Assembly: GCF_003957295.1 (NCBI RefSeq)
Contig: NZ_RQPJ01000002.1
Location: 1-64,000 of the forward strand
Source of the DNA: Arenibacter aquaticus
GTDB taxonomy: Bacteria; Bacteroidota; Bacteroidia; Flavobacteriales; Flavobacteriaceae
Length of the DNA stretch: 64,000 nucleotides
Direction of reading: 5' to 3'
In this document: piece after piece, positions 14,953 to 48,243 of the stretch
Layout of the letters: each line of letters starts with the position of its first letter
Position numbering within the stretch: position 1 is the first letter of the stretch
The notes under the pieces: model-generated
What the model saw: the letters and a program-made list of their open reading frames with translations, nothing else
Database searches by the model: none
Told to the model about the DNA's origin: nothing
Program-made: the position numbers and the translations under genes

Positions 14953-16644
14953 ATGCAGCTTTCGGAACAAGAAGTAATTAGAAGGGAAAAACTAAATAAA
15001 TTACGGGAGATGGGGATAGACCCTTATCCCGCCGCTCTTTACCCTGTAGATAGCACTTCTAAAAATGCCAAGGAAAATTATGTGGAAGGTAAAAAGGTTA
15101 CCCTTTCCGGAAGACTAATGTCCAGAAGAATACAAGGTAAGGCGTCTTTTGCTGAACTACAGGACAGTGAAGGCCGCATTCAGGTTTATTTTAACAGGGA
15201 CGAAATTTGTACCGGGGAAGATAAGACCTTGTACAACGATGTTTATAAGAAATTGTTGGACATAGGTGATATTATAGGTGTAGAAGGAGAACTTTTCACC
15301 ACCCAAGTAGGGGAAAAAACCGTAATGGTGAAGAATTTCACCATTTTAAGTAAATCCTTACGCCCTTTACCCCTGCCAAAAGTGGATGCCGACGGAAAGG
15401 TATATGACGAGTTTAATGACCCGGAATTGCGTTACCGCCAGCGTTATGTGGATCTAGTGGTTAATCCGGATGTGAAAAAGAATTTTATTAAACGGACCAA
15501 GGTAACCAATAGCATACGCCAATTTTTTAACGATGCCGGTTATTTGGAAGTGGAAACCCCTATTTTACAGCCCATCCCAGGTGGAGCTGCTGCAAGGCCG
15601 TTTATTACGCACCACAATGCCCTAAACATGCCTTTATATTTAAGGATAGCCAATGAGTTATACCTTAAAAGATTAATCGTTGGTGGCTTTGATGGCGTTT
15701 ACGAATTTGCCAAGGATTTTAGAAACGAAGGCATGGACCGTACCCATAACCCGGAGTTTACCGTAATGGAACTTTATGTAGCCTATAAGGATTACAACTG
15801 GATGATGGACATGACCGAAAGGCTCCTGGAAAAGGTTGCCATTGATTCCAACGGTACTTCAAAAGTTACCGTAGGGGAGAACGAAATTGAGTTCAAGGCC
15901 CCTTACCCTAGAATCCCCATTTTAGAAGCCATAAAGACCCACACAGGGTTTGATGTGGCCGGGATGGATGAAGTGGAACTTAGGGAAGTTGCTAAAAAAT
16001 TACATATAGAGGTTGATGAAAGCATGGGTGTTGGAAAGCTCATAGACGAGATTTTTGGTGAGAAATGTGAACACCATTACGTGCAGCCTACCTTCATTAT
16101 AGATTACCCAAAAGAAATGAGTCCACTTACCAAGGAACATCGAAGCAATCCGGATTTAACGGAACGTTTTGAACTAATGGTCAATGGCAAGGAATTGGCC
16201 AATGCCTATTCTGAGTTGAACGACCCCATTGATCAGCGCGAAAGGTTTGAAGACCAACTTAAACTTTCTGCAAAAGGTGACGACGAGGCCATGTTCATTG
16301 ATCAAGATTTTTTAAGGGCTTTGGAATATGGTATGCCGCCTACCAGTGGTATAGGGATCGGAATTGATCGCTTGGTGATGCTATTGACCAATAACGCTTC
16401 CATACAGGAAGTCTTGTTCTTCCCCCAAATGCGTCCGGAAAAGAAACAACTGGAGTTAAGCGAGGAAGAAAAAGTAATAATGGAATTATTAAAACCAGAA
16501 GGAAAGTGGCCATTGGCCGACCTTAAGGCCAAAGCTGGACTAAGTGGCAAAAAATGGGATAAATCCATGAAGGCACTAGCCAAACATGAACTAATAAAAG
16601 TGGTTGCCGAAGAAGATATTAAAATGGTGGTGTTGAATAAGTAA
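14953..16644 (+). CDS. lysS: Lysyl-tRNA synthetase (class II)
   Basis: A 563-residue cytoplasmic enzyme that charges tRNA-Lys. The N-terminal OB-fold anticodon-binding domain (about 50-150, with [19 protein letters not shown]) is followed by the class II catalytic core: motif 1 near [15 protein letters not shown], motif 2 [14 protein letters not shown], motif 3 [13 protein letters not shown]. Beyond motif 3 the protein carries about 60 extra residues ([21 protein letters not shown] onwards) that look like a small winged-helix domain; this tail is seen in Bacteroidota LysS and absent from the E. coli type. It has its own promoter and a strong terminator. Confidence 0.97.
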
Positions 16645-19700: not shown

Positions 19701-20342
19701 TACTAGAGGTCTTACATTATTAGGATCGCGTATTTCATTGGTATGATTAAGCAAGTACATATCCAGATCACCGTCTTTGTCATAATCAAAAAAGGCTGCC
19801 TGAGTGGAATAGCCTGTGTCCGCAATGCCATAGGTTTCGGCCTGTTCCTCAAATTTTAGATTTCCCTGATTAACATACAAAAGGTTCTTGCGTTTATCCT
19901 TATTGAAATTCCCGGACCTACACACATAAATATCCAACAGTCCGTCATGATTAACATCCACCATTGTAACACCAGTAGACCATCCTGGAATAACGATTCC
20001 TGCACTGTCTGAAATATCTTCAAAATTAAGCCCCCCCTTGTTCAGATACAGCCGATCGCCAACCATATTCCCACTAAAGTAGATGTCTGGCAAACCATCA
20101 TTGTTAATATCTCCTATGGCTACCCCACCTCCATTGTACACATAAAAAAAATCGACCATATTAAACTTATCATTTTCCTCAATATGATTGTTAAAGGAAA
20201 TGCTGGTAATAGTAGCCGGCACCAATTCAAATAATGGTTTTTGCGTTGTTTCCTTTTCATCTCCAGCCTTTTTATCCACACAGGACGATAATTGAATGAA
20301 CAAGAAAGGCAATAAGGCTATTTTAACTAACTTTAGCATCAT
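16785..20342 (-). CDS. Giant VCBS/FG-GAP repeat lipoprotein with UnbV/ASPIC domain
   Basis: An 1185-residue lipoprotein (signal residues 1-21, lipobox LSSC). It has two blocks of FG-GAP/VCBS repeats, each with DxDxDG calcium loops (for example DINNDGLPDIYF, DVNGDGWEDILV, DFDNDGFKDLYV, DYDGDGDQDLYV, DFDKDGDLDLFI). They flank an ASPIC/UnbV domain at about 510-600 (HLKGDSLNPIGLGTQV, SSVDKIVHFGLG, ILVSWPDG). Such proteins are predicted to form integrin-like beta-propellers on the cell surface. It lies third after susC-susD, but a strong hairpin separates it from susD, so it is expected at a lower level. A surface glycan-binding or enzymatic role is possible; the family has no firmly assigned function. 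Confidence 0.85.
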   Translation of the reverse strand: MMLKLVKIALLPFLFIQLSSCVDKKAGDEKETTQKPLFELVPATITSISFNNHIEENDKFNMVDFFYVYNGGGVAIGDINNDGLPDIYFSGNMVGDRLYLNKGGLNFEDISDSAGIVIPGWSTGVTMVDVNHDGLLDIYVCRSGNFNKDKRKNLLYVNQGNLKFEEQAETYGIADTGYSTQAAFFDYDKDGDLDMYLLNHTNEIRDPNNVRPLVKDGTGPANDKLYRNEESRGKRIRFTEVGKQAGIVYDGLGLGLGIADVNGDGWEDILVTNDFISNDYLYINKKDGTFEEMSKTYLDHVSHFSMGNDIADFNNDGLEDIVTMDMRPRDNFHEKKMSGPLNFDLFERTLQQGYMPQYMRNTLQINNGTSLNGHPSFSEVGQLLNIDATDWSWAPLFADFDNDGFKDLYVTNGYLRDITDLDFINYTGSLSANVSKDSLDYVLKQKAREMPSIKLSNFLFKNRGDLSFEDVTEKWGLQIPSLSNGAAYADLDNDGDLDIVVNNINEAAFLFENKSNVVLENHYLNIHLKGDSLNPIGLGTQVSLFQKGKQQTVRQALTRGYQSSVDKIVHFGLGDTEMIDSILVSWPDGAVGKVLNPLPDREITISRDEASEDLASKNTVGNSSLFREISTNLKLDHLHEDKVYYDFNRQFLLPHKHSNQGPGLAVGDINNDGRDDFFVGGGYNSSGTLFYGTADGTFRKELLTPNENEKYEEDTGVLFFDYDGDGDQDLYVTSGSNEFYEGSEYYQDRLYANDGQGNFSLDKQALPKIVASGSCVRAADFDKDGDLDLFIGGRLTPLKYPLPPNSYLLENNNGKFTDATNKLAPSIRKVGMVTDALWTDYDLDGDTDLIVVGEFMAIQFFENQNAKLVNSSGKIGLTYTSGWWNSINGGDFDNDGDMDYILGNIGLNTKYSVSANEPLTVYAMDYDNNGSLDPIMSSYNNGNEYPVHSRDDLIKQIPQMKKKFPDYDSYAHATMADVLSNQEKASSYIAKAFLFASVYLQNNGNGKFEIKSLPMQAQIAPVYGILINDYDRDGYLDVLLSGNNYGTEVGVGRHDASKGVFLKGDGKGHFKSVPSRESGLWLNGDNRGAVSIKVNDRQAYLFGRNSNGPKVYVSEVQPTKGTFMDVLPNVAKAIITYKDGKIRLQEFYYGSSYLSQSSRTLFLYGEEDKVVFYDYLGNEVAVNEL

Positions 20343-30758: not shown

Positions 30759-33590
30759 ATGAAATTCAAACTTTTAATTCTACCTATTATATTTCTAGTA
30801 TTTTCTTCCTGTGAGCAAGAGCAAAGTCAAGAAATAGATCTATCCGGGGAGTGGCAATTTCAAATTGATTCATTGGACCAAGGAGTAAAGGAACAATGGT
30901 ACACCAAAAAATTAATAGAAAGCGTTCAATTACCCGGCTCCATGGCCGAAAATGGCAAAGGCAACGATATAACTGTAGACACACATTGGACAGGCAATAT
31001 GTGGAACGATAGCCTGTGGTACAAAGATCCAAAATATGCCAAATACCGGCAGCCTGGCAACATCAAAGTATCATTTTGGTTAAGCCCCGAAAAAGTGTAT
31101 ACCGGGCCCGCGTGGTACCAGAGGAAAGTTAGCATTCCCAAATCTTGGAACACCCAGCACATCAATCTACATTTGGAACGTGCTCATTGGGAAACTACCG
31201 TTTGGATCGATCAACAAAAGATAGGAACGCAAAATAGCCTAGGAACTCCACACGATTACAATTTAGGGGACTATTTGACTCCTGGCGAACACACCATTAC
31301 CATACGAGTGGACAATAGGGTAAAAGACATTGACCCTGGTGTTGATGCTCACAGTATTTCAGACAATACCCAGACCAACTGGAACGGTATTGTTGGTGAC
31401 ATTAAATTGACCGCCACATCGTCTATTAACTTTCAAAACATAAAAATCTTCCCAAATGTGGCCCGCAAAATGGTTACCGTTAAGGGGGAACTGAGAAATT
31501 ATTCAGGGAGTGCCCAAGAGTGTAAAATTATTCTGCAAGCCCGCGAAGTGAACGGCTCGCAAAAGAATTTACCAGAAACAATCAAGAAGATTGATATCGA
31601 TTCCGAGGGGCGGTTTGAAATAGAGTATCCAATGGGCCATTCTCCTCTACTCTGGGATGAATTCAATCCTAACTTGTACACCATGCAGTTGCGACTGGAA
31701 TCAAAACTAGGGATTAATCAAAAAAAGGTCACCTTTGGAATGCGTGATTTTAAAGTTGATGGTAAGCACTTTTCCATGAATGGCCGTCCTGTCTTCCTGC
31801 GCGGAACCTTGGAATGTTCCATATTTCCATTGACTGGGTATCCGCCCACCAATGTGGAGGAGTGGAAGCGCATTCTAAAAACTATCAAGAATTATGGATT
31901 AAACCATATGCGATTTCATTCCTATTGCCCACCAGAGGCTGCTTTTGAGGCCGCTGATGAAATGGGCGTCTATATTCAGGTAGAAGCTTCGGCCTGGGCC
32001 AACATCGGTGATGAAAAACCAATAGACCAATGGATTTACAAGGAGGCCGAGGCTATCATAAATGCTTATGGCAATCACCCATCCTTTGTAATGATGGCAT
32101 ATGGCAACGAGCCTTCCGGGGATAACCACGCGGCATACCTAAAAGATTTTGTGGAGCATTTTAAGAATATGGATAACCGCAGGTTATATACCAGTGGGGC
32201 TGGCTGGCCTTTATTGGATAATTTGGATTATTACAATCATAAAGGGCCCCGCATCCAAGGATGGGCACAAGAACTTAATAGTATAATCAATGCGGAACCA
32301 CCACAGACGGAGTTCGATTATGATCAATTAATCCAAGAAACGCCAATGCCTTATGTAAGTCATGAAATGGGCCAATGGTGTGCGTACCCCAATTTCAAGG
32401 AAATGTCAAAATACACTGGGGTCTTAAAACCTAAAAACTTTGAGATATTTAAAGAGACCTTGGAAGATAATCACCTGGGGCACTTGGCAGATAGCCTATT
32501 GCTGGCCTCGGGTAAATTACAAGTACTTTGCTATAAGGCCGATATTGAAGCCGCCCTACGTACCAAGGAAATGGCAGGTTTTCAGTTATTGGATCTCCAT
32601 GATTTTCCTGGTCAAGGCACAGCGCTTGTTGGTGTTTTGGACGCCTTTTGGGAAGAAAAAGGATATGTAACAGCCGATGAGTTCCGGGAATTTAATTCCG
32701 AAACAGTGCCGTTGGCCAGACTTGCCAAACGCATATTTTTGAACAACGAAACTCTAAAAACCAACATTGAAGTTGCCCATTACGGAGCAACACCATTGAA
32801 CGATATCACCCCAACCTGGGAACTATCCGATAAAAATGGCGTTTTATATGCCAAAGGGGAATTTACTAAAACAAACATCCCTATAGGAAACGGATTTAAT
32901 TTGGGCGAAATTTCGGTGGATTTGAACAAATCCGATCGTGCCCAAAAATTGGTGTTGACCGTTCGCGTTGGGGAGCACAAAAACAGTTGGGACTTATGGG
33001 TATATCCGGCCCAAAACAAACCTATTGCGAAGGTGGACCAAATTATGGTAGTTCAAAAATTTGATGAACGTACCATCAACCATCTGAAAAATGGAGGCAA
33101 TATACTTCTAAACATCACCAAAGGCGATATAGCGCCCAAAAAAGGTGGCGATATTGGTGTGGGCTTCTCCAGTATTTTTTGGAACACCTCATGGACCAAT
33201 GGCCAAAAACCACATACCCTGGGAATTCTTACTAATCCTGAACATCCTGCCTTATCAGAATTCCCAACCGAATATCACAGTAATTGGCAATGGTGGGACG
33301 CTATGTCCCATTCCAATGCCATTGTATTGGACGACTTTACTCCAGATCTAGTACCTATTGTACGTATTGTAGACGATTGGTTTGAGAATCGCAGAACAGC
33401 CTTGCTTTTTGAAGTAAAGGTAGGAAAGGGCAAATTATTGGTATCCGGTATTGATTTGCACTCAGATCTAGCGCAAAGACCAGAAGCCCGTCAGTTATTA
33501 TATAGTTTAAAAAAATATATGAGCAGTGACCAATTCGATCCAGCGATCACAATGGAGTCTGATGATATAAAAAGTTTGTTCACTTATTAA
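30759..33590 (+). CDS. Glycoside hydrolase family 2 lipoprotein
   Basis: A 943-residue lipoprotein (lipobox SSC, Cys18). GH2 layout: sugar-binding jelly roll at about 25-220 (WYQRKVSIPKSW, TVWIDQQKIG, HDYNLGDYLTPGEHTI), Ig-like domain about 220-335, TIM barrel about 340-620 (NGRPVFLRGTLECSIFPL, NHMRFHSYCPPEAAFEAADE). The acid/base Glu is Glu451 in YGNEPSG and the nucleophile is likely Glu536 in SHEMGQWCAYP. A long C-terminal part (about 640-943) has further beta modules. Beta-galactosidase or beta-glucuronidase-like activity is plausible, but the substrate is not known. A paralogue is encoded two genes downstream. Confidence 0.9.
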   Translation: MKFKLLILPIIFLVFSSCEQEQSQEIDLSGEWQFQIDSLDQGVKEQWYTKKLIESVQLPGSMAENGKGNDITVDTHWTGNMWNDSLWYKDPKYAKYRQPGNIKVSFWLSPEKVYTGPAWYQRKVSIPKSWNTQHINLHLERAHWETTVWIDQQKIGTQNSLGTPHDYNLGDYLTPGEHTITIRVDNRVKDIDPGVDAHSISDNTQTNWNGIVGDIKLTATSSINFQNIKIFPNVARKMVTVKGELRNYSGSAQECKIILQAREVNGSQKNLPETIKKIDIDSEGRFEIEYPMGHSPLLWDEFNPNLYTMQLRLESKLGINQKKVTFGMRDFKVDGKHFSMNGRPVFLRGTLECSIFPLTGYPPTNVEEWKRILKTIKNYGLNHMRFHSYCPPEAAFEAADEMGVYIQVEASAWANIGDEKPIDQWIYKEAEAIINAYGNHPSFVMMAYGNEPSGDNHAAYLKDFVEHFKNMDNRRLYTSGAGWPLLDNLDYYNHKGPRIQGWAQELNSIINAEPPQTEFDYDQLIQETPMPYVSHEMGQWCAYPNFKEMSKYTGVLKPKNFEIFKETLEDNHLGHLADSLLLASGKLQVLCYKADIEAALRTKEMAGFQLLDLHDFPGQGTALVGVLDAFWEEKGYVTADEFREFNSETVPLARLAKRIFLNNETLKTNIEVAHYGATPLNDITPTWELSDKNGVLYAKGEFTKTNIPIGNGFNLGEISVDLNKSDRAQKLVLTVRVGEHKNSWDLWVYPAQNKPIAKVDQIMVVQKFDERTINHLKNGGNILLNITKGDIAPKKGGDIGVGFSSIFWNTSWTNGQKPHTLGILTNPEHPALSEFPTEYHSNWQWWDAMSHSNAIVLDDFTPDLVPIVRIVDDWFENRRTALLFEVKVGKGKLLVSGIDLHSDLAQRPEARQLLYSLKKYMSSDQFDPAITMESDDIKSLFTY

Positions 33591-36966: not shown

Positions 36967-39723
36967 ATGAGAAAATTATATAAATTATCCTTATATACTA
37001 TTGTCCTACTGCTTCATGGTATGCTAATTGGGCAAAAAACAAATCAGATTTCTCTAGCCGGAAATTGGAGCGTAAAATTGGACTCATTGGATAAAGGCTC
37101 ACATGAAAATTGGGCGTCCCAAAATTTTGAGGGTTTAACCATAAAATTGCCGGGCACTCTGGACGACGCTGGCATAGGACACCGTAACACCCTTAAACCA
37201 GCCCTTAACAATTACGTTCTTTCCAACCTCACAAGAAAACATCAATACATTGGAAAAGCATGGTACCAAAAGGAAATTAATATCCCCAAATCCTGGAAGA
37301 AAAAAGAAGTAAAACTGACCCTTGAACGGGTGATATGGGAATCCCAGGTTTTTGTAGACGGTAAATTAGCAGGGAGATCAGAAAGCCTTGTTGGAGCCCA
37401 TGAATACAATTTAACCTCCTTTTTGTCTCCCGGGAAGCACTTACTTACTATAGTTATAGACAATTCTAACAAATATCCCTTTATAAATGTTGCAGGTAGT
37501 AAATATCCAGACCCGATAAACCAGGACATGGCCCACGGCTATACCAACCATACCCAGATTAAATGGAACGGTATTATTGGCAATATACTGCTAGAAGCAT
37601 CCACATACAATACACCTGAAAACCTACAAATTTTCCCGGATGTTGAAAATAAAATACTAATGGTAAGCTTTGAACAGGCCAAGCCAGTGTCAAAAAAAAT
37701 AATATTTGAACTTTCTGATCAAGATGGAAAAATTATTTATACCGAAATTGTCAATAATGCCATAATTCAAGGGAATCTTGTCTCTTTTAAAATTGATAAG
37801 CCAGAAAAACTTGAATTCTGGGACGAATTCCACCCTGTACTATACCAGGCCAAGGTTATAAGCCAGGGGCAAGACATTCAAACTAAGTTTGGTTATAGAA
37901 AAGTAGAAAATACCAATGGTGTTCTTAGTCTTAATGATGAGCGTATTTTTCTTCGTGGTAATTTGGAATGTGTCATTTTTCCGTTGACGGGATATCCGCC
38001 CATGGAAAAATGGGGCTGGACCAAACTTATTGAACAGGCCAAAAATTACGGGCTCAACCATCTTAGGTTTCACTCCTGGTGCCCTCCCAAAGCAGCTTTT
38101 GAAGCCGCCGATGAAGCTGGCTTCTATTTTCAAGTAGAACTACCACATTGGAGCCTTAAAGTTGGTGAGGACGAAAATACAACCCTATTTTTAAGAAATG
38201 AAGCAGCAAAGATTTTAAATGATTACGGAAATCATCCTTCATTTATTTTAATGGCCCTGGGCAACGAGTTGCAAGGCGACATAGGACTGCTAAACCGCAT
38301 GACAGCTGAACTAAAGAAAAAAGACAGCAGGCATTTATACGCTACTACTTCCTTTTCCTTTCAAAAACCCACAGGAACAAGGCCAGAAAAGGAGGATGAA
38401 TTTTTTATCGCCCAATGGACGGACAAGGGTTGGATTAGAGGACAGGGTATATTTAACGACAAACCCCCTCATTTTAATGCCGACTACTCTGCCAATAGCG
38501 ATCATATTCAAGTTCCTTTGATCTCCCATGAAATTGGGCAGTATTCAGTTTACCCGGACTTGACCGAAATACCGGATTACAGCGGTGTTTTGGAGCCATT
38601 GAATTTCCTTGCCGTTAGGAACGCCCTGCAAAAAAAGGGAATGTTGGATCTTGCGGGTGACTTTACTCAAGCCTCTGGCAAACTGGCGGCCATGCTTTAC
38701 AAAGAAGAAATAGAAAGGGCATTGAAAACCAACAGTTTTGATGGTTTTCAATTGTTACAATTACAAGATTTTCCTGGACAAGGAACTGCCCTAGTAGGTT
38801 TGCTCAATGCTTTTTGGGAATCTAAAGGAATCATATCTCCAGAGGAATTTAGAAAATTCAATAGCCCCTTAGTACCCCTAATTAGATATGAAAAGGCGAT
38901 TTACGTTGAAGGAGAAAACTTCTTGGCAAGTATAGAAGTGGCCAATTATCTGAAAAAATTAGAGAATCAAACCATTGAATGGCAAATAAACAATGAAGAA
39001 GGTAACGTTCTATTCAAAGGTGCCATCAACAATTTAGACTTGACTATTGGCAACAACATGGAGTTGGGAAAAATAGCTATTCCCATCAAAATTGAAAAGG
39101 CCCAGGAATGGAATATTGAGATTAAACTCAAGGGAACAGCATACCAAAACAGTTGGCCAATTTGGGTGTATCCATCTTCAAAATTACTCCATCCAAAGAA
39201 TATTATAATCACCTCCTCCTTTGAGGAAGCTAAAAAAGCTTTGGGCAAAGGGAAAAAAGTATTCCTTAACCCCGACCTAAAACAACTAAAAGGAAATGAC
39301 GGAAGATTTACACCCGTCTTTTGGAGCCCCGTTCATTTCCCCGATCAACCAGGGACCATGGGACTCTTAATAGATAATGAACATAAGGCATTGCAAGATT
39401 TCCCTACTCAATCCTATACCCAATGGCAATGGTGGGATCTCTGCATCAATTCAAAAGCATCGCCTATAGATACCTTACCCGTGAAGCCCATTGTACGGGT
39501 CGTAGATAATTTTGTAACCAACAAACATTTGGCAAATATTTTTGAGGTCAAGATTGGCAATGGAAAACTTTTATTTTCTTCAATGGACCTCCATTCAGAT
39601 TTGGAAAATAGACCAGCAGCACGCCAACTAAGACAAAGTCTATTAAACTATATGGAGAGTGAAGCCTTCGATCCAGTTTCGACTATAACTGCCAACCAAC
39701 TAGAAACGTTGAAATTAGAGTAA
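36967..39723 (+). CDS. Glycoside hydrolase family 2 protein, paralogue of the lipoprotein GH2
   Basis: A 918-residue exported protein. Signal peptide residues 1-22 (MLIGQ end) with no lipobox, so it is likely soluble in the periplasm, unlike its paralogue. Jelly roll about 25-210 (WYQKEINIPKSW, FVDGKLAGRSESLVGAHEYN), Ig-like domain to about 320, TIM barrel about 320-600. The acid/base Glu434 sits in ALGNELQGD and the likely nucleophile Glu522 in SHEIGQYSVYP. The same block order and shared motifs (LECxIFPLTGYPP, FDGFQLL-LxDFPGQGTALVG) show descent from a common gene with the GH2 at 30759. Both keep catalytic residues, so they may cut different linkages. Last gene of the operon. Confidence 0.9.
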   Translation: MRKLYKLSLYTIVLLLHGMLIGQKTNQISLAGNWSVKLDSLDKGSHENWASQNFEGLTIKLPGTLDDAGIGHRNTLKPALNNYVLSNLTRKHQYIGKAWYQKEINIPKSWKKKEVKLTLERVIWESQVFVDGKLAGRSESLVGAHEYNLTSFLSPGKHLLTIVIDNSNKYPFINVAGSKYPDPINQDMAHGYTNHTQIKWNGIIGNILLEASTYNTPENLQIFPDVENKILMVSFEQAKPVSKKIIFELSDQDGKIIYTEIVNNAIIQGNLVSFKIDKPEKLEFWDEFHPVLYQAKVISQGQDIQTKFGYRKVENTNGVLSLNDERIFLRGNLECVIFPLTGYPPMEKWGWTKLIEQAKNYGLNHLRFHSWCPPKAAFEAADEAGFYFQVELPHWSLKVGEDENTTLFLRNEAAKILNDYGNHPSFILMALGNELQGDIGLLNRMTAELKKKDSRHLYATTSFSFQKPTGTRPEKEDEFFIAQWTDKGWIRGQGIFNDKPPHFNADYSANSDHIQVPLISHEIGQYSVYPDLTEIPDYSGVLEPLNFLAVRNALQKKGMLDLAGDFTQASGKLAAMLYKEEIERALKTNSFDGFQLLQLQDFPGQGTALVGLLNAFWESKGIISPEEFRKFNSPLVPLIRYEKAIYVEGENFLASIEVANYLKKLENQTIEWQINNEEGNVLFKGAINNLDLTIGNNMELGKIAIPIKIEKAQEWNIEIKLKGTAYQNSWPIWVYPSSKLLHPKNIIITSSFEEAKKALGKGKKVFLNPDLKQLKGNDGRFTPVFWSPVHFPDQPGTMGLLIDNEHKALQDFPTQSYTQWQWWDLCINSKASPIDTLPVKPIVRVVDNFVTNKHLANIFEVKIGNGKLLFSSMDLHSDLENRPAARQLRQSLLNYMESEAFDPVSTITANQLETLKLE

Positions 39724-39868
39724 AAGACAATGTAGGCTGTAGAATAAAGGTTAAAATATTTATAAGTAAATAGGATTTTTACTTATTAGGTCTTAATTTA
39801 ATTATAATGGCCTGCAATAATAGGCAATAGTGCTGGATAAGCACTGTAACAAAAGTAAAATCGACAGT

Positions 39869-39884
39869 ATGGACAGTTTTGTTT
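39869..39884 (+). promoter_or_regulatory. ATGGACA motif upstream of the cytochrome operon (site 1)
   Basis: ATGGACAGTTTTGTTT on the plus strand, one base pair from the susC site core ATGGACAATTTTATTT in most of the motif. No second half-site is found 20 bp away. About 215 bp before the first gene. Confidence 0.38.
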
Positions 39885-40008
39885 AAGAAACAAGCCCCAC
39901 TCTAAAGCAATATACGATATAAAGTAAGTTTTATTAAAAACTGGGATAGCCAGATTTCATATTCAACCAAAACTACTTATTTCCAACAATAATGTAGCAT
40001 TTTACATA

Positions 40009-40030
40009 TAAACAGCAAAACTGTCCATAG
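40009..40030 (-). promoter_or_regulatory. ATGGACA motif upstream of the cytochrome operon (site 2)
   Basis: On the minus strand ATGGACAGTTTTGCTG, in inverse orientation to site 1, with ATGT about 21 bp further as a weak second half. It lies about 55-75 bp before the start of the DUF1553 gene. Sites 1 and 2 together form an inverted repeat of about 14 matching bases with a 130-bp loop. Confidence 0.4.
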
Positions 40031-40085
40031 TTTTTTATAATTATTCTTATTATTATTGATCTTTTATTAAGAAAAACAAAAAAAC

Positions 40086-42824
40086 ATGAAAAATAAAGCA
40101 TATTTATTCCTGTTGATTTTGGGAGCACTTGTGCTTATTGTTTCCGTTTGGAACCTTCTCAAACCTTCGGACACCGTAGATTTTAGTGCCGATATAAAAC
40201 CCATCTTAAACAAAAACTGTATCACCTGCCATGGAGGGGTTAAGAAGAGTGGTGGGTTTAGCCTATTATTTGAAGAGGAAGCCTTTGCTAATACCGAATC
40301 CGGGCAACCTGCCATAATACCGGGCAATGCCGCCAAAAGTCCGTTTATACAGCGATTGACCGAGAAGGACCCGGAATTGCGCATGCCCTATAAAAAACCA
40401 CAACTTTCCAAGGAAGAAATTGCACTACTCACAAAGTGGGTAAACCAAGGTGCCAAATGGGGCAAACACTGGGCTTATTCTTTGCCCGAAAAAGTAGCTA
40501 TTCCGGAAGCCGTTCAATCCGCAGGTCTTGCCTCGGACGATTCTGACGGATTTATCAAAAATGATATCGATCATTTTATCTTAAGAACACTTGAGCAGCA
40601 CGACCTACAACCCAGTCCCACTGCAACACCAAATGTATTGGCCAGAAGGCTCTCTATGGACCTCACGGGATTGCCTACGGACAGGAATCTTTTTGAGAAT
40701 TTTACCGCAGGCAACATATCCTATGAAAATATGGTAGACACCCTGTTATCCAGAAATTCCTATGGTGAAAAATGGGCCAGCTGGTGGTTGGACCAAGCTC
40801 GGTATGCCGACACCAAAGGATATGAAAAGGATTTGGGAAGGACCATGTGGCAATATCGCGACTGGGTCATAAGGGCCCTGAACAATGACATGCCCTATGA
40901 CCAATTTACCATTGAACAATTGGCAGGCGACCTTTTGCCCAACCCTTCTGCCGATCAATTGATCGCCACGGCATTTCATAGAAATACGATGAACAATGAC
41001 GAAGGCGGTACAGATGATGAAGAGTTTAGGGTAGCATCCGTAATAGATAGGGTAAACACCACATTTGAGGTATGGCAGAGCACAACCATTGGCTGCGTAC
41101 AATGCCACAGCCACACCTATGACCCTTTTAAGAATAAAGAGTACTATAACCTTATGGCCTTCTTTAACAATACCAGGGACGAAGACACTTCCGAGGATGA
41201 GCCCAACCTTAAGTTCTATGATGAAGTTCAGCAGGAAGAAAAGGATAAAATTTATGAATGGATTTCCAAGCATGAGAGTAAGAATGTTGCGGAAGCCTAT
41301 AACAATTTTCTTAAATATACCGAACCGGTCTACCATGCCCATTTGGCCACGGACTACACCAACGGAAATTTGGCAGACACCAAATGGTTAGCCCTGCGCG
41401 ACAATGGTTCCTGTTACCTTAAGAACGTATATACACAAGGGGCCGACTATATGTACCTTAAATATTCCTCGGGTATAGATGGTACCAAGGTCACTATTAG
41501 AAAGGACAATGCAAAAGGTGAAATACTGGCCCAGTTTACCACCAATAAAACCAAGGGAAGGGAAATACAAAAGTTCCCCTTCAAAAAAAGTACGGAAAAA
41601 TTAAATCTGTACATTGAGGCCAATAACGACAAGATTTCCCCAAAAAGTCCTACCAGTTATATTTCTTGGTTTGCGTTCCTTCCTGAAATAAAGGCCGATA
41701 AAAATTATGAATATCCACAGATTGATGACAGTTTTATGAAACTGTTGAACGTCAATACCCCTACACTACCGATCATCATAGAAAATCCGGACTTCCAAAA
41801 GAGGACTACCCAAGTTTTTGAACGAGGAAATTGGCTAATGAAAACCGATACCGTACAACCAGGGACACCAAGTAGTCTTAATCCATGGAACGATGCCTGG
41901 CCAAAAAACAGATTGGGCCTTTCAAAATGGATCGTTAGCAAGGAAAATCCATTAACGGCCCGCACCTTGGTAAATAGGGTATGGCATCAAATATTTGGCA
42001 GGGGAATCGTAGCCTCCCTAGAGGACTTGGGATCCCAATCCGATCCGCCATCGCATCCAGAATTACTGGATTGGCTGGCCTTGCGATTAATGAACGAGCA
42101 CAATTGGAGCATAAAGGCCTTGATAAAGGATATTGTTATGTCTGGCACCTACAGACAGAGTTCCAAGAACAACGCAGAATTATACAATTTGGACCCTGAA
42201 AACAAGCTGTATGCCAGAGGCCCCAGAATAAGGCTTAGTGCGGAACAGATACGGGATCAGGCATTGGCCGTTTCTGGACTGTTGAGCAACAAAATGTATG
42301 GCCCAAGTGTAATGCCACCACAACCCGATGGTATTTGGCAAACCGTTTACAACGGTGGAAATTGGGTTGAAAGCAAAGGAGAGGACAAATACAGGAAAGC
42401 ACTTTACACCTATTTAAAAAGAACGAGCCCCTATCCATCATTCTTAACTTTTGATGCCGGCAGTAGGGAAGTATCTACGGTGAGGAGGACAGTGACCAAC
42501 ACCCCTTTACAGGCGCTGGTAACCCTAAACGATCCCGTATACTTGGAAACGGCATACCATTTGGCCAAATATATGAAACAGGACCTAGATGTGGATACCA
42601 GTATAAAAAAAGGCTATAAGAAAGCGGTACTCATGGATATCAGCGAAGAAAAATTGAAGGTATTAAAGGAATTGTACACCAATTCGGTGAGCGATTTTAA
42701 ATCTGAACCGGACAATATTAAGGAGTTTGTACCTTATGATACCAATGTAGGACCGGAGTTGGCGGCATTGACCGTAGTAGCCAATGCTATCATGAATTTG
42801 GATGAGTTTTTAACAAAATCATAG
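40086..42824 (+). CDS. DUF1549/DUF1553 c-type cytochrome (planctomycete PSCyt1-PSCyt2-PSD1 type)
   Basis: A 912-residue protein anchored by one N-terminal helix (residues about 5-24) and facing the periplasm. The PSCyt1 heme domain (about 30-130) has CITCH (Cys45, Cys48, His49). DUF1549 follows (about 160-360) with a second CxxCH, CVQCH (Cys337, Cys340, His341), and then a beta domain and DUF1553 (about 600-900, LVNRVWHQIFGRGIVASLEDLGSQSDPPSHPELLDWLA region). Such proteins are abundant in Planctomycetes and found in some marine Bacteroidota; their substrate is not known, but an electron-transfer or oxidising role is expected. It is the first of four co-oriented genes; the next starts 2 bp after its stop. 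Confidence 0.92.
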   Translation: MKNKAYLFLLILGALVLIVSVWNLLKPSDTVDFSADIKPILNKNCITCHGGVKKSGGFSLLFEEEAFANTESGQPAIIPGNAAKSPFIQRLTEKDPELRMPYKKPQLSKEEIALLTKWVNQGAKWGKHWAYSLPEKVAIPEAVQSAGLASDDSDGFIKNDIDHFILRTLEQHDLQPSPTATPNVLARRLSMDLTGLPTDRNLFENFTAGNISYENMVDTLLSRNSYGEKWASWWLDQARYADTKGYEKDLGRTMWQYRDWVIRALNNDMPYDQFTIEQLAGDLLPNPSADQLIATAFHRNTMNNDEGGTDDEEFRVASVIDRVNTTFEVWQSTTIGCVQCHSHTYDPFKNKEYYNLMAFFNNTRDEDTSEDEPNLKFYDEVQQEEKDKIYEWISKHESKNVAEAYNNFLKYTEPVYHAHLATDYTNGNLADTKWLALRDNGSCYLKNVYTQGADYMYLKYSSGIDGTKVTIRKDNAKGEILAQFTTNKTKGREIQKFPFKKSTEKLNLYIEANNDKISPKSPTSYISWFAFLPEIKADKNYEYPQIDDSFMKLLNVNTPTLPIIIENPDFQKRTTQVFERGNWLMKTDTVQPGTPSSLNPWNDAWPKNRLGLSKWIVSKENPLTARTLVNRVWHQIFGRGIVASLEDLGSQSDPPSHPELLDWLALRLMNEHNWSIKALIKDIVMSGTYRQSSKNNAELYNLDPENKLYARGPRIRLSAEQIRDQALAVSGLLSNKMYGPSVMPPQPDGIWQTVYNGGNWVESKGEDKYRKALYTYLKRTSPYPSFLTFDAGSREVSTVRRTVTNTPLQALVTLNDPVYLETAYHLAKYMKQDLDVDTSIKKGYKKAVLMDISEEKLKVLKELYTNSVSDFKSEPDNIKEFVPYDTNVGPELAALTVVANAIMNLDEFLTKS

Positions 42825-42826
42825 CG

Positions 42827-44335
42827 ATGAACAGTTTAGACCGATTAATAAAAGAAAAGCTACAGCGGGACATACAGGCAAAGACCCGCCGACATTTTAT
42901 AAAGGATTGTGTGGCCGGTATGGGCGGATTGGCCCTAGGGTCCTTATTCATGGGCTGTAATTCATTTGTAGGCGATAACAAAAAGGGCAAGATCGCCCTT
43001 ACCGAAAGGGACATCAACCCCTTGGCTTCCATGGCCCCTCCCTTTCCTGCCAAGGTAAAATCGGTTATATACCTGCATATGGCCGGTGCTCCTTCACAAT
43101 TGGAAATGTTTGATTACAAGCCTACCTTGCAAAAATTGAACAACCAGGCCTGTCCACAATCCCTCTTGGAAGGTAAAAAATTTGCTTTCATTAGGGGCGT
43201 ACCCAAACTGCTGGGACCACAGGCAGAATTTAAGCAACATGGGGAGTCTGGCAATTGGGTCTCTAACTTCTTGCCCCATTTTTCCAAGGTTGTGGATGAA
43301 GTAGCTTTTTTAAAAGCTGTCAACACTGACCAGTTCAACCACGGGCCCGCACAGCTGTTTATGCATACGGGAAGCCCCAGATTGGGCAGGCCCAGTATAG
43401 GTTCATGGGTCACCTATGGCCTAGGTTCGGAAAATCAGAATTTACCGGGTTTTGTGGTACTTACCTCAGGAGGTAAAACACCCGATGCCGGTAAGAGTGT
43501 ATGGGGAAGTGGTTTTTTGCCCTCCGTGTACCAAGGAGTGCAATGCCGATCAAAAGGAGATCCTGTACTTTATATTGAAGACCCCAAAGGCATTAGCCGT
43601 AATCTTAAAAAAAGTACCATTGATGCCATAAACAACATCAATAAGAAAGAATTCAACGAATATTCAGACCCGGAAATACTGGCTAGGATCAATCAGTATG
43701 AAATGGCTTACAGAATGCAAACGGCAGTCCCAGAGGTAATGAACATCAATAACGAACCGGAACATATAAAGGAAATGTACGGGGTAAAGCCGGGGAAGGA
43801 ATCTTTTGCCAATAATTGCCTTTTGGCCAGAAAACTTGTCGAGGACGGAGTACGTTTTGTCCAGTTGTTCGATTGGGGCTGGGACAGCCACGGAACCGGC
43901 CATGATACGGCAGTTGACCTAGGGCTAAGAAACAAATGTACCGAAATAGACCGCCCTATGTCCGCCCTGCTCTTGGACCTAAAACAAAGAGGGCTGTTGG
44001 ATGAAACCTTGATTGTATGGGGTGGCGAATTTGGCCGTACCCCCATGCAGGAAAACAGGGAAGGACAGGAAATGGCCTATAAGGGAAGGGATCACCATGG
44101 GGATGCCTTTACCATGTGGATGGCCGGTGGTGGTATTAAAAAAGGTGCCAGCCATGGCCTTACCGACGAGATAGGATTTTCGGCCCTGGAAGGACAGGTT
44201 TCGGTGCATGACGTACATGCCACAATTTTACATCTTTTGGGCTTTGACCACGAACAGTTCACCTACGACTTCCAAGGAAGACCTTTCCGTCTTACCGATG
44301 TGGAAGGACATGTAATTCATGACATACTTGCCTAA
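42827..44335 (+). CDS. Tat-exported DUF1501 lipoprotein
   Basis: A 502-residue protein of the DUF1501 family, an alkaline phosphatase/sulfatase superfamily fold. The N-terminus has a twin-arginine signal (TRRHFIK, Arg21-Arg22) and a lipobox ending in Cys44, so it is a Tat-exported, possibly lipid-anchored protein; folding with a metal cofactor before export is implied. Family blocks: YLHMAGAPSQLEMFDYKP, FKQHGESGNWVSNFLPH, NTDQFNHGPAQLFMHTGSPRLGRPSIGSW (split across positions), WGWDSHGTGHD, VWGGEFGRTP, DHHGDAFTMWMAGGGI. It is nearly always encoded next to a DUF1553 cytochrome, as here. Substrate unknown. Confidence 0.92.
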   Translation: MNSLDRLIKEKLQRDIQAKTRRHFIKDCVAGMGGLALGSLFMGCNSFVGDNKKGKIALTERDINPLASMAPPFPAKVKSVIYLHMAGAPSQLEMFDYKPTLQKLNNQACPQSLLEGKKFAFIRGVPKLLGPQAEFKQHGESGNWVSNFLPHFSKVVDEVAFLKAVNTDQFNHGPAQLFMHTGSPRLGRPSIGSWVTYGLGSENQNLPGFVVLTSGGKTPDAGKSVWGSGFLPSVYQGVQCRSKGDPVLYIEDPKGISRNLKKSTIDAINNINKKEFNEYSDPEILARINQYEMAYRMQTAVPEVMNINNEPEHIKEMYGVKPGKESFANNCLLARKLVEDGVRFVQLFDWGWDSHGTGHDTAVDLGLRNKCTEIDRPMSALLLDLKQRGLLDETLIVWGGEFGRTPMQENREGQEMAYKGRDHHGDAFTMWMAGGGIKKGASHGLTDEIGFSALEGQVSVHDVHATILHLLGFDHEQFTYDFQGRPFRLTDVEGHVIHDILA

Positions 44336-44353
44336 AATACAACCAACCAAACC

Positions 44354-45223
44354 ATGCGAATACTACTATTACTTTTTGGATCTATATTACTCTCCTATGG
44401 ACAGGAAAAAGTCCTGTTCTTTCAAACTGATTGGGGCAATCAATTGTCTTGGAACGACTTCTGTGAAAGGGCAAAAACCTCTGGTTATGACGGTCTGGAA
44501 ATATGGCTGCCCTCGGGTCCTGATGATCAAAAAGCCTTAAAGGCCGCTTTAAAAAAACACGGGCTACTACTAAACCTTCTTCATGGCACCCACAAAGGAC
44601 TGCCATTCCAAGAGAGTCTGGAACTATACAAAAAGGGGTTGGAGGCCTTAATGCTGTGGAAACCCGTGCTGATCAATTCCCAAACAGGAAGCGATTTCTT
44701 TTCCTTAGAGGAAAACAAGGCATTTATCGAGGTTGCCAATACCCTTAGTTCCCAATACAACATTCCCGTGTACCACGAAACCCACCGTGGCCGTTTTAGT
44801 TATAATCTACCGGACACCAACACCTATTTAAATCTTATTCCCGACCTAAAACTTACCTTGGACATTAGCCATTGGATGGTTGTCCATGAATCGCTTTTGG
44901 AAGGAAAAGATGCGTTGCTCTCCACTGTCAAGGATAGGTCGCACCATATCCATGCCCGTATAGGCCATGCCGAGGGGCCACAGGTAAACGACCCCCGAGC
45001 ACCGGAATGGAATAAGGCCCTGGAAAGGCACTTGGGTATCTGGGAGGAAGTAATCCGAAACAACTGGAAAAAACACAAAGGCGTTTTCACGGTCACTACA
45101 GAATTTGGCCCTGCCGATTATATGCCCACCCTACCCTATACACGCATCCCGGTAACCGACCAATGGCAAGCAAATGTTTATATGATGGAACGTTTAAAGA
45201 AACGCCTAAAACTGAATAAATAG
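44354..45223 (+). CDS. Exported xylose-isomerase-like TIM barrel protein
   Basis: A 289-residue protein with signal peptide (residues 1-16, ending SYGQ), so it acts outside the cytoplasm, unlike ordinary sugar phosphate isomerases. The TIM barrel of the xylose isomerase-like/EC 5.3-type family is seen from YDGLEIWLP on. Metal ligands expected in Glu of HETHRGR, Asp of LTLDISHW, His of HIHARIGHAEG and Glu of TTEFGPADY are all present. Likely acts on a sugar or keto-sugar; homologues are linked to oxidised-glycoside metabolism. Third gene of the cytochrome operon, 18 bp after the DUF1501 gene. Confidence 0.82.
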   Translation: MRILLLLFGSILLSYGQEKVLFFQTDWGNQLSWNDFCERAKTSGYDGLEIWLPSGPDDQKALKAALKKHGLLLNLLHGTHKGLPFQESLELYKKGLEALMLWKPVLINSQTGSDFFSLEENKAFIEVANTLSSQYNIPVYHETHRGRFSYNLPDTNTYLNLIPDLKLTLDISHWMVVHESLLEGKDALLSTVKDRSHHIHARIGHAEGPQVNDPRAPEWNKALERHLGIWEEVIRNNWKKHKGVFTVTTEFGPADYMPTLPYTRIPVTDQWQANVYMMERLKKRLKLNK

Positions 45224-45230
45224 TTGATCA

Positions 45231-46628
45231 ATGGAAGTAATTCAGCAATTAATAGGGCGCTTGCATCCCCTTGTAGTCCATTTGCCAATTGGTTTTATCA
45301 TTACAGGATTGTTGCTACAGTGGTATGACCGTAAGAACCATGAATGGTCCAAAATAATCACCATGGTCTTTTTATGGGGATTTATTTCCGCAACCATAGC
45401 CAGTGTAAGTGGGTATTTATTATACAAAGGGGAAGGTTATTCCTTTGATACGGTGAAATATCATTTGTGGTTTGGAATTGCTACGGCAATTTTCTCTTTG
45501 CTCATGTATTTTAGGTTATTGCCGCCCACCAAAATGGACTTTATTAAACGAATGCCAGTAGTACTAATGTCGTTCTTGCTGCTCTTCCTAATTTCCTTTA
45601 CCGGGCACCTGGGTGGAAATATCACCCATGGATCGGATTATCTTTTGGAGCCCTTGCCCAACAACATAAAAACCTTTTTGGGGCTAGGCCCGGAACTGTA
45701 TGAAATGCCAACCCTAGACGAAGAAAACTGGGAGGAGGCAGAGCTTTATACCGATGTGATCCAACCCATTTTGAACAACAAATGTGTAAGTTGCCACAAT
45801 GCAAAAAAGGAAAAGGGCCAACTGCAGTTGGAGGAAGAAAATGGAATCCTTAAAGGGGGAGAAAACGGTGCCATTATAGAAACCAATGACCCAGAAAACA
45901 GTTCTTTGTACTCAAGGTTGATACTACCTTTGGAGCATGAAGATCACATGCCTCCAAAAGACAAGACCCAGCTTACCCAAGATGAGATAGCCGTGATAAA
46001 AGCTTGGATAGCCCACAGCAACCCCTTTGACAAAAAAATTGGGGAACTTGGACTAAAAAAGAATTTGTTCCAAGCCTTTTTCCCAAAGGCAGAGGACCAA
46101 ACCTACCCCGATGTGGAGGTTGCCAAAATTGCCAAGGATACCATTTCAGCACTTAAGAAAATAGGGTTACATGTAGAGCCAATTAGTGAAAACAATAATT
46201 TCATTAAGGTATCCTGTATAAATAAACCTACTTTTTCGGATTCGGATTTTGATTTGCTACTCCCTATCAAGGACCAGATAGTATCCCTTGACCTGGGTGA
46301 GACTCAAATAAGTGATGCTATTTTTGAAAAATTGGGATCCTTGCCACACCTTACCTTTTTAAAGTTGGACAATAGCGATATTACGGGAAGGAATATTGAA
46401 AGCTTGGAAGGTTTGGAATATTTAAAAAGCATCAACCTGGTTGGCACCAATTTCCAAGAAACCCATCTGCCAAAATTAAAAAAGTTCAAAACTTTACAGA
46501 CAGTGTATTTGTACAACACCCCAATCCAAAAACCGCAAAAGGTTGAAAAACGAAAGCCCGGCGAACTGTTTTTTGACTATGGGGGCTATGACCTACCGGC
46601 TATAGCTACCGATTCTATTGTCTATTAA
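45231..46628 (+). CDS. DUF2231 membrane c-type cytochrome with LRR-like tail
   Basis: A 465-residue protein. Residues 1-about 145 contain DUF2231 with four membrane helices and the HPLVVHLPIGF motif. A cytochrome c domain (about 175-270) has CVSCH (Cys185, Cys188, His189) and the Met-containing block HEDHMPPKDKTQLTQDEIAVIKAWI. The last part (about 340-430) resembles leucine-rich repeats (VSLDLGETQIS, FLKLDNSDITG, INLVGTNFQE). It may pass electrons from the periplasmic cytochromes to the membrane. Last of the four-gene operon, 7 bp after the TIM-barrel gene. Confidence 0.88.
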   Translation: MEVIQQLIGRLHPLVVHLPIGFIITGLLLQWYDRKNHEWSKIITMVFLWGFISATIASVSGYLLYKGEGYSFDTVKYHLWFGIATAIFSLLMYFRLLPPTKMDFIKRMPVVLMSFLLLFLISFTGHLGGNITHGSDYLLEPLPNNIKTFLGLGPELYEMPTLDEENWEEAELYTDVIQPILNNKCVSCHNAKKEKGQLQLEEENGILKGGENGAIIETNDPENSSLYSRLILPLEHEDHMPPKDKTQLTQDEIAVIKAWIAHSNPFDKKIGELGLKKNLFQAFFPKAEDQTYPDVEVAKIAKDTISALKKIGLHVEPISENNNFIKVSCINKPTFSDSDFDLLLPIKDQIVSLDLGETQISDAIFEKLGSLPHLTFLKLDNSDITGRNIESLEGLEYLKSINLVGTNFQETHLPKLKKFKTLQTVYLYNTPIQKPQKVEKRKPGELFFDYGGYDLPAIATDSIVY

Positions 46629-46812: not shown

Positions 46813-48243
46813 ATGGACATTAGCAAAAAAGTAGGTCTCCTACTAGGCCCAATTTTCTTTTTTCTTTTAATTAATTTACCAACTGCCCTTATATCGGAAA
46901 AAGCCGATGCCGTAATTGCTGTAGCTTTATGGATGGTAATTTGGTGGATTACCGAGGCTGTGTCCATTTCCGTGACTGCCCTCTTGCCACTAATACTGTT
47001 TCCTACTTTGGGTATAATGCCCATAAACCAGGTAGGAGCCAATTACGGAAGCCCTATCATATTTCTTTTCTTTGGCGGTTTTGTCATGGCCTTGGCACTA
47101 GAAAAGGTAAATCTACACAAAAGGATTGCCCTGAATATCATAAAAATTACGGGAACCACCCCCAATAAAGTGATACTTGGCTTTATGATCGCTACAGCTT
47201 CCTTAAGTATGTGGATCAGTAATACCGCCAGTACGGTAGTGATGCTGCCCATTGCCTTATCTGTCATTGGGTTATTGGTCAATGATGCCGATGGTTTTAC
47301 CAAGCATGACCGCAATTTTGCCTTAAATGTTATGTTGGGGATTGCCTTCTCTGCCAATGCCGGGGGTATAGCCACCGTCATTGGAACCCCTCCCAATTCT
47401 ATCCTCATTGGCCTATTGGAAAACGAATACCACATTGAAATCTCTTTTTTAAAATGGATGGCAATCGGATTGCCATTCTCCATTATTATGGTTGCCATAA
47501 GTTACCTAGTACTGGTAAAGTGGCTATTCCCCAATAAGCAGCTAAAATTCACTGGATCCAAACAAATAATCCAGGAAGAATTGCAAAAATTAGGCCCCAC
47601 CAGTAGGCGGGAGAAAATGGTACTTATCATATTTGGAATTACCGTCTTCCTATGGATCTTTAGGACCCTTATTAACAGTATATTTCCTCAATTGGGACTA
47701 TCTGATACCATAATAAGTATGGTAGCGGCCGTAGCGCTCTTCTCTATCCCTTTCAACCTAAAAAAAGGAGATTTTATTTTACGATGGAAGGATACCGAAA
47801 AACTCGCTTGGGGCATTCTGGTATTATTTGGTGGCGGACTGGCTCTTGCAGAAGGAATGTCTTCCAGTGGTATTGTAGATATGGTAGCCAACGCAATACA
47901 GAACAGTGAGATTAGCATCCTCTTTACCGTAACCCTTTTGGTAATCTTGATGCTTTTTATGACAGAATTAATGAGCAATGTTGCATTGGTGGCAGTACTT
48001 GCCCCCGTGGTAGCAGGGATAGCCATAGGTCTGGAAATCCCCGTATTGTATCTATTAATACCGGTAACCATGGCCAGTAGTTGTGCCTTTATGCTCCCAA
48101 TGGCCACCCCGCCCAACGCTATTGTTTTTGCCAGTGGATATGTAAAAGTGTATCAAATGGCTAGAATAGGCATTCTTCTCAACCTAATTTCGGTTGCTTT
48201 ATTGGTCTTGATGTATCTATTTGTGATTCCCCTAATATTCTAA
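46813..48243 (+). CDS. SLC13/DASS-family sodium-coupled anion transporter
   Basis: A 476-residue inner-membrane protein with about 11-12 helices. DASS features: WWITEAVSISVTALLPL near the N-terminus, the ISNTAST motif (SNT), GTPPNSI, a long cytoplasmic loop near residues 240-280, and a second half with MSNVALVAVLAPV and MATPPNAIVFASG. The family imports dicarboxylates or, in some members, sulfate with sodium. Sulfate freed by the sulfatase would be an attractive cargo, but dicarboxylate is equally possible. It stands alone, about 185 bp after the cytochrome operon. Confidence 0.93.
   Translation: MDISKKVGLLLGPIFFFLLINLPTALISEKADAVIAVALWMVIWWITEAVSISVTALLPLILFPTLGIMPINQVGANYGSPIIFLFFGGFVMALALEKVNLHKRIALNIIKITGTTPNKVILGFMIATASLSMWISNTASTVVMLPIALSVIGLLVNDADGFTKHDRNFALNVMLGIAFSANAGGIATVIGTPPNSILIGLLENEYHIEISFLKWMAIGLPFSIIMVAISYLVLVKWLFPNKQLKFTGSKQIIQEELQKLGPTSRREKMVLIIFGITVFLWIFRTLINSIFPQLGLSDTIISMVAAVALFSIPFNLKKGDFILRWKDTEKLAWGILVLFGGGLALAEGMSSSGIVDMVANAIQNSEISILFTVTLLVILMLFMTELMSNVALVAVLAPVVAGIAIGLEIPVLYLLIPVTMASSCAFMLPMATPPNAIVFASGYVKVYQMARIGILLNLISVALLVLMYLFVIPLIF

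Follow-up and report, generated by a model that had tools for sequence, protein, structure and literature searches.

The DNA analysed here comprises 64,000 nt of Arenibacter aquaticus (NZ_RQPJ01000002.1, forward strand, positions 1-64,000; hereafter the window) from a genome of 5.2 Mb, and its subject is a cassette of four plus-strand open reading frames (ORFs) at 40086-46628. The ORFs occupy 40086-42824, 42827-44335, 44354-45223 and 45231-46628, with intergenic gaps of 2, 18 and 7 nt, which confirms to the base the four closely spaced genes noticed in a previous reading made from the letters alone (the sequence-only reading). According to Pfam, the first protein carries PSCyt1, PSCyt2 (DUF1549) and PSD1 (DUF1553), the second DUF1501, the third AP_endonuc_2, and the fourth DUF2231 followed by PSCyt1 and a weak LRR match. 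The cassette thus contains the PSCyt/DUF1549/DUF1553 and DUF1501 pair, with the three former domains in one protein and DUF1501 adjacent to it.

The first gene (40086-42824, plus strand) encodes a protein of 912 aa with an N-terminal hydrophobic anchor or signal and, as had been claimed and as Pfam and the motif positions bear out, DUF1549/DUF1553 together with two CxxCH motifs, at residues 45 and 337. Both motifs are present in 79 of the 80 aligned DUF1553 proteins, the window protein counted. In addition, a predicted CBM6-type beta-sandwich, which the earlier reading had missed, lies between DUF1549 and DUF1553 (residues ~421-530; 41346-41675, plus strand). The AlphaFold model of the protein (mean pLDDT 83) has a run of strands at residues 422-530, and all 14 Foldseek matches at E <= 0.001 were CBM6 domains or GH43 enzymes, the latter presumably carrying CBM6 themselves. 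An independent profile search matched the CBM6 of BH0236 at profile positions 442-530 (E 0.0024), and Pfam CBM_6 was found at E <= 0.1 in the DUF1553 proteins of 14 of 43 relatives (best 5.8e-10). Moreover, the spacing containing the insert could be measured in 61 of 75 cassette relatives and falls at 269-287 in 60 of them; of 54 other DUF1553 proteins, 35 were measurable, and 34 of these have a spacing of ~113 or 350-450. The 50 Foldseek matches inspected resemble the CBM-like insert and not the DUF1553 core, the table giving no residue ranges. A carbohydrate role is therefore supported from within the proteins, insofar as the predicted domain is a CBM6.

The second gene (42827-44335, plus strand) encodes a DUF1501 protein of 502 aa (Pfam score 509 bits), 95% identical to its homologue in A. 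algicola. The Tat-type signal and the lipobox claimed for it were borne out, since RR21-22 occurs in 84 of 86 aligned DUF1501 proteins, the other two being gapped there, and Cys44 in 82, the four proteins without it being paralogs from the window's own genome. A structure model with a mean pLDDT of 71 found LtaS and sulfatases as its best Foldseek matches (E down to 1.1e-6) at modest TM-scores of ~0.3, and in overall fold the model, at these values, resembles the alkaline-phosphatase-like superfamily. The C-terminal metal motif of this superfamily is an Asp-His/Asn pair. A profile comparison with 13 sulfatases matched the C-terminal metal region of DUF1501 with a probability of 94 and aligned the sulfatase Asp315-Asn316-Gly317 with Glu401-Phe402-Gly403, so that the metal pair, Asp-Asn in the sulfatases compared, is missing and Glu401-Phe402 stand there in 86 of 86 proteins. 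Asp96, His172, Asp353, His355, His423 and His475 are likewise unchanged in all 86, and no counterpart was seen of the sulfatase Cys/Ser-x-Pro-x-Arg (C88, P90 and R92 of the sulfatase alignment), the profile alignment covering only the C-terminal part of DUF1501. DUF1501 may thus be a member of the alkaline-phosphatase-like fold with an altered metal site.

The third gene (44354-45223, plus strand) encodes a putatively periplasmic TIM barrel of 289 aa, whose AP_endonuc_2 score of 33.7 bits is just above the cut-off of 31.1. The description of an isomerase-type barrel with intact metal ligands holds, as E142-x-H144, D170-x-x-H173, H198, H200, R202 and E250 are invariant in 48 of 48 barrels, the window's included, and a signal peptide was recognized by eye. 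The best PDB relative is AsbF (E 1.5e-4), an entry labelled uncharacterized which we take to be a 3-dehydroshikimate dehydratase; ETH and D..H are aligned, but the match spans about half of the cassette barrel, and the cassette, unlike AsbF, has a context of redox and carbohydrate functions. None of the three PDB profile matches up to E 0.1 was named CGE or OGE. As described in PMC10628242, the CGE/OGE enzymes are metal-dependent TIM barrels that beta-eliminate 3-keto-glycosides and have Glu (His in OGE), a catalytic His two residues on, Asp, His and Glu in their site. By motif mapping rather than superposition, E142-x-H144, D170, H198 and E250 match this set, and beta-elimination may be the reaction of the cassette barrel, which, unlike CGE/OGE, has a signal peptide. 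The active-site pattern supports the view that this barrel would suit a keto-sugar substrate.

The fourth gene (45231-46628, plus strand) encodes a DUF2231 membrane domain with a PSCyt1 heme c domain and an LRR tail, as judged from Pfam, hydropathy and alignment. Four hydrophobic segments and one CxxCH (C185xxCH189) agree with the membrane cytochrome proposed before. Relatives of this protein are 30-76% identical to that of the window (28 aligned), yet all 72 DUF2231 proteins compared retain H12, H17, H78, H126, H133, C185, C188, H189 and M240. A simple hydropathy scan, assuming a periplasmic heme c domain, places the five membrane histidines near one membrane edge; these are putative heme ligands, and DUF2231 may be a di-heme b membrane cytochrome. 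In a PDB profile search of this protein, the 60 matches inspected all came from the LRR tail and none named the DUF2231 part.

The four-gene set is a widespread Bacteroidota cassette and is not peculiar to the glycan locus of the window. Among 80 relatives of the window DUF1501, the best of at least 584 confirmed (67-95% identity, up to 10 kb of flank each, 21 loci shorter than 21 kb), the DUF1553 gene is present in 77 (76 by similarity and one, in L076, cut by the contig end); two of the other three contigs start at DUF1501, and only L089 is truly without the gene. The DUF2231 gene is present in 70 of 80 (67 by similarity, and as ORFs in L068, L075 and L078), and the ten relatives without it include two short contigs, L060 and L093. 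Both counts require a part of the protein outside the shared PSCyt1 domain, or an ORF seen. A barrel ORF occurs in 48 of 80, with remnants in three more, and the gap between DUF1553 and DUF1501 is <= 10 nt in 60 of 77 adjacent pairs.

Beyond these relatives, DUF1501 was found at E <= 1e-80 in 29 of 247 Bacteroidota genomes, the window's own counted; the epithet "Planctomycete-type" in the sequence-only reading applies to the domain names only. This phylum survey gave 92 DUF1501 places with at most seven candidates scored per genome, from which 40 regions were fetched, one of them (L146) of only 4 kb; the ORF caller, which retains the longer frame where two overlap, did not report the DUF1501 gene of L137. 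Of these 40 loci, 11 have an NHL gene and 21 a DUF2231 gene, each compared with 0 of 40 control loci (p 0.0004 for NHL); the controls lie at round coordinates in 19 DUF1501-bearing genomes and are neither random nor matched to the genomes of the 80 relatives. In a FastTree tree of 132 DUF1501 proteins, which carries a long-branch warning, labels L023 "other" despite its barrel and leaves out L078, the barrel is confined to one fully supported clade of 88 rows, within which the tree cannot separate gains from losses.

Elsewhere in the window genome, DUF1501 recurs in four full-length copies, in a fifth that is more divergent and in two partial matches. Five paralogous loci (two in L009, and L010, L011 and L012) have DUF1553 and a DUF2231-type protein and no barrel. 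In L012, the DUF2231-type protein is fused to DUF1553, giving a DUF2231-PSCyt1-DUF1549-DUF1553 protein; the accompanying DUF1501 is divergent, and nearby lie a sugar-transporter gene and genes that by eye resemble KduI/KduD and GH20. L009 holds two tandem DUF1501 cassettes with an NHL-repeat gene and ApbE (PF02424), the latter of which might flavinylate a partner.

The barrel has been lost in places, as remnants in L015 and L016 (Arenibacter) and L030 (Kriegella) indicate. In these three loci and in the congeners L114-L116 and L118-L121, the barrel is decayed or missing and the open frames of the other three genes are kept. Elsewhere the accessory place is occupied by other enzymes. Six Cyclobacteriaceae loci (6/80; Pfam check in three) lack DUF2231 and have another AP_endonuc_2 protein behind DUF1501, and in one of them (L034) the replacement barrel has, by eye, a Tat-like start. 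In four further loci (L069, L072, L077 and L081; 4/80) the barrel is absent and DUF2231 is followed by a Gfo/Idh gene of GH109-like type, which Pfam confirmed in L069, L077 and L081; all except the short contig L077 also have a Pfam-confirmed 3keto-disac_hyd gene (PF06439) upstream and a second Gfo/Idh-type gene downstream. Because each set forms a single group on the DUF1501 tree, these represent two exchange events, not ten. In two lineages, then, the occupants of the accessory place belong, by their family assignments, to sugar-isomerase or 3-keto-sugar families.

Barrels also occur outside cassettes. In the 247-genome sample, 8 of 22 barrel matches adjoin DUF1501; 19 non-cassette relatives were found and 18 of their loci fetched, and the seven compared share the active-site residues and show no signal peptide by eye. 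A PhyH gene lies near the barrel in 10 of the 18 loci compared with 1 of 40 control loci (p 8e-6), namely in 7 of 7 loci of the family sample and 3 of 11 of the phylum sample. PhyH was called by Pfam in seven loci, and the other 11 and the controls were scanned with a profile built from them; in L215 the ORF caller gave no barrel ORF, and in L211 PhyH is four ORFs away. The pairs in L094, L095, L097-L101 and L211-L213 include several with an AraC regulator or SusC/SusD nearby. We take the association to mean that the barrel family often works beside an oxidising partner, namely PhyH in the cytoplasm and a heme-based one beyond the inner membrane.

In Flavobacteriaceae, the gene directly upstream of the cassette is usually that of a lysS-like class II tRNA synthetase (14953-16644, plus strand, in the window), named from its Pfam class and size. 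Of the 18 relatives' loci in which lysS is visible, 14 have the cassette directly behind it, as do 11 of 17 congeners, at least three genomes being in both sets (L014, L015 and L016 / L117, L119 and L121). In the window, a glycan island (16785-39723) lies between the two, with ASPIC/FG-GAP, SusD, SusC and AraC genes on the minus strand and sulfatase, MFS, GDSL, GH2, DUF5107-TPR and GH2 genes on the plus strand; its SusC/SusD pair and glycan enzymes make it a polysaccharide utilization locus. An island of this type is present at the same junction in 3 of 18 Arenibacter genomes, that is, the window's, G263 and G269, the latter two having ASPIC, SusD, SusC and AraC in one direction and MFS, GDSL, GH2 and DUF5107 in the other. 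In G262 and G266, the cassette stands beside AraC (60%), MFS (71-72%) and GH2 genes, the GH2 gene being 0.7-1.3 kb away from it. As for the remaining congeners, one has the cassette in another context, and G254 is without an ortholog. G258 has a second cassette copy behind SusC, SusD, NHL and ASPIC-like genes.

Close relatives (77-78%) of the window ASPIC gene are confined, among the 18 genus genomes, to the corresponding island of G263 and G269. Three Maribacter/Zobellia loci (L017, L020 and L038) have SusC, SusD and ASPIC genes 64-86% identical to those of the window directly upstream of the cassette; they were found through the cassette and are not independent of it, and no lysS was seen in these stretches. 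L083 shows the window's divergent order of ASPIC, SusD, SusC and AraC followed by the cassette, without the six intervening genes. The cassette has thus become linked to glycan genes on several occasions, though not as a rule. The 362-nt gap before the cassette (39724-40085, plus strand) is by eye most like those of G263 and G269, and its last part resembles that of the lysS-type congener L118; these likenesses are suggestive only. A Bacteroidota-type promoter pattern gave 4 matches in the window compared with 4.7 expected and none in this gap, and sigma-70 and terminator scans were at chance level.

Several further genes around the cassette deserve mention. For the ASPIC/UnbV FG-GAP protein beside SusC/SusD (16785-20342), each of the 18 genus genomes yields 3-12 matches at E <= 1e-150. 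The two GH2 proteins (30759-33590 and 36967-39723) score best with the model of the exo-beta-1,4-galactosidase BT4151, below its cut-off. A DASS anion symporter (46813-48243, plus strand) flanks the cassette downstream and was rejected as a part of it, as the 60-genome family sample has relatives of >= 72% identity in 12 other genomes, of which six are without a DUF1501 relative (E <= 1e-190). In L014, L015, L016 and L027, an ORF of 462-479 aa that is absent from the window lies between DUF2231 and DASS, with a PKD domain (checked in L015 only). In A. arenosicollis (L016 / L121), the DUF1553-DUF1501-DUF2231 set is duplicated in tandem behind lysS.

The explanation that we favour, with a probability of about 0.4, is that the four genes form one periplasmic, membrane-tethered system for heme-linked sugar oxidation followed by metal-dependent work on the keto product. 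The DUF1553 protein would hold the sugar through its CBM6 domain, bringing two c-type hemes near the chemistry, and together with DUF1501, a pre-folded Tat-exported lipoprotein of the alkaline-phosphatase fold, it would oxidise a ring or side-chain position. Electrons would then pass via the heme c of the DUF2231 protein and its histidine-rich membrane part to the quinone pool, and the metal-dependent barrel would enolise the resulting keto-sugar, most likely for beta-elimination or epimerisation. The neighbouring glycan island would supply the substrate in the window, while elsewhere the cassette exists without an island. This proposal builds on an established gene set with its domains and conserved motifs, on the CBM6-like fold and on the exchange of the accessory enzyme in two lineages; from these we infer oxidation as the reaction, the direction of the electrons, heme b in DUF2231 and a keto-sugar as the substrate of the barrel. 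A periplasmic oxidation path had already been put forward by the sequence-only reading, which is partly supported: a periplasmic redox cassette, now with a sugar-binding module, and a barrel site suiting a keto-sugar are retained; the electron direction and the substrate are as conditional as before, and membership of the glycan locus is not supported in the form in which it was put.

A number of observations weigh against this proposal, the strongest against a glycan role being that glycan genes are not enriched and that the barrel is often absent. Glycan-type genes (SusC, SusD, sulfatase, GH2, ASPIC, Gfo/Idh and 3-keto-type) lie near 19 of 80 relatives compared with 8 of 40 controls (p 0.82), these genes being detected by similarity to the window and a few loci, so that other glycoside hydrolases are missed in both sets alike, and no enrichment was found around the 40 phylum-wide DUF1501 loci either. 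Together with the direct lysS junctions, these counts do not support the claim that the cassette is a member of the glycan locus; what the survey of gene neighbours does offer is the island at the same junction in two congeners, the SusC/SusD/ASPIC joins in Maribacter/Zobellia and the AraC-MFS-GH2 genes in two congeners. Explaining the barrel label on the DUF1501 tree takes 14 changes (one perhaps from the mislabelled L023), which with the remnants in three loci marks the barrel as dispensable. The other DUF1501 clade (44 rows) has no barrel, its next gene being NHL in 8, DUF2231 in 12 and something else in 24. Moreover, E-x-H does not fix the substrate of the barrel, because it is common to AsbF too; the Pfam CBM_6 model has no match in the window DUF1553 protein; and no dehydrogenase cofactor domain (GMC, Rossmann or PQQ) was found in the four proteins by Pfam at E <= 0.001.

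A more far-reaching version of the oxidation proposal is doubtful, though it deserves stating. It sees in the cassette a heme-driven oxidative glycan machine, in which a diheme DUF1549/DUF1553 core with its own CBM6 would act alongside a DUF1501 with a rebuilt phosphatase-like site, send electrons into the histidine-rich DUF2231 cytochrome of the membrane and deliver a keto-sugar to an exchangeable second enzyme. The latter would be the E-x-H barrel, another barrel, or Gfo/Idh with a 3-keto hydrolase, and the DUF1549/DUF1553 core would be one for which no solved relative was found here.

The alternative that survives best, though we hold it to be rather unlikely, is a general envelope or respiratory role unrelated to glycans, with the place beside the island merely positional. 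The usual site beside lysS without glycan genes, the absence of glycan-gene enrichment near the 80 relatives or the 40 other Bacteroidota DUF1501 loci, and the cassette's own 362-nt upstream gap would all fit such a role, but the CBM6 domain in the DUF1553 protein would not, nor would the fact that several lineages have the cassette next to SusC/SusD/ASPIC, AraC-MFS-GH2 or 3-keto genes, and the presence of a DUF1501 relative (E <= 1e-190) in only 9 of 59 other family-sample genomes argues against a core function. Somewhat less probable again is a reverse electron flow, in which DUF2231 would oxidise quinol and the DUF1553 hemes, receiving the electrons, would activate O2 or peroxide for the hydroxylation or demethylation of a sugar, with the product going to the barrel. 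PhyH, with which the non-cassette barrel relatives pair, is a family of O2-using enzymes, and the five membrane-edge histidines would fit a quinone-linked site; in lakes, according to PMC5615132, PSCyt genes were commonest in epilimnion genomes. However, no oxygen-activating site turned up in the analyses made of the cassette. Lastly, it is very unlikely that DUF1501 is a sulfatase- or phosphatase-like hydrolase trimming the substrate while the cytochromes serve a separate step, for the Foldseek matches to LtaS and sulfatases and the profile match to sulfatases that suggest it are countered by Glu401-Phe402 in place of the sulfatase Asp-Asn in 86 of 86 proteins; no Cys-x-Pro-x-Arg counterpart was seen in an alignment covering the C-terminal part.

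The oxidation proposal can be set beside known systems. To our knowledge, no chemistry has been assigned to DUF1501 or DUF1553. LacA, the catalytic subunit of the LacABC system, is a GMC-type oxidoreductase, unlike anything in the cassette, whose four proteins have no such domain at E <= 0.001. Bacteroides BT2156-BT2160 carry out redox glycan breakdown by oxidation, elimination and hydration of keto-glycosides; a heme cassette is not known among them. PMC11501099, which mentions BT2156-BT2160, reports that strains deleted for BT2157 or BT2158 were not impaired in growth on raffinose-family sugars. In Price et al. 2022 (PMC9007349), LacABC with a DUF1080 3'-ketolactose hydrolase follows the logic proposed for the cassette, namely periplasmic, membrane-bound sugar oxidation and then cleavage of the keto-sugar, and the same hydrolase family (PF06439) flanks three cassettes.

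The closest description among the papers found is that of He et al. 2017 (PMC5615132), which reports PSCyt genes with PSD domains, some with carbohydrate-binding modules, in Verrucomicrobia and Planctomycetes, usually adjoining conserved genes of unassigned role and, in some genomes, often near sulfatase genes; the function of the PSCyt genes is likewise stated there as unassigned. The Bacteroidota cassette resembles these pairs in combining PSCyt, PSD domains and a carbohydrate-binding module, and differs from them in its added DUF2231-PSCyt1 protein and periplasmic barrel and in showing no sulfatase-gene enrichment. PMC11345257 records that some Maribacter sugar phosphate isomerase/epimerase is raised on laminarin, and PMC11495043 has a single mention of a domain name. 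In a literature search whose scope left most subscription journals outside, no paper naming both DUF1501 and DUF1553 was found, and none describing the four-gene cassette in titles and abstract openings.

Many environmental bacteria have DUF1501 paired with DUF1553, some of them with numerous copies in one genome. The conserved Bacteroidota version helps to focus the search for their function, since it brings a sugar-binding module and a predicted route for electrons, along with an accessory place filled in two lineages by members of sugar-isomerase or 3-keto-sugar families. A direct assay is thereby made possible in culturable relatives such as Zobellia and Maribacter. If the heme-driven glycan machine were true, it would add to the hydrolases and lyases of known folds another chemistry by which glycans are opened in the periplasm.

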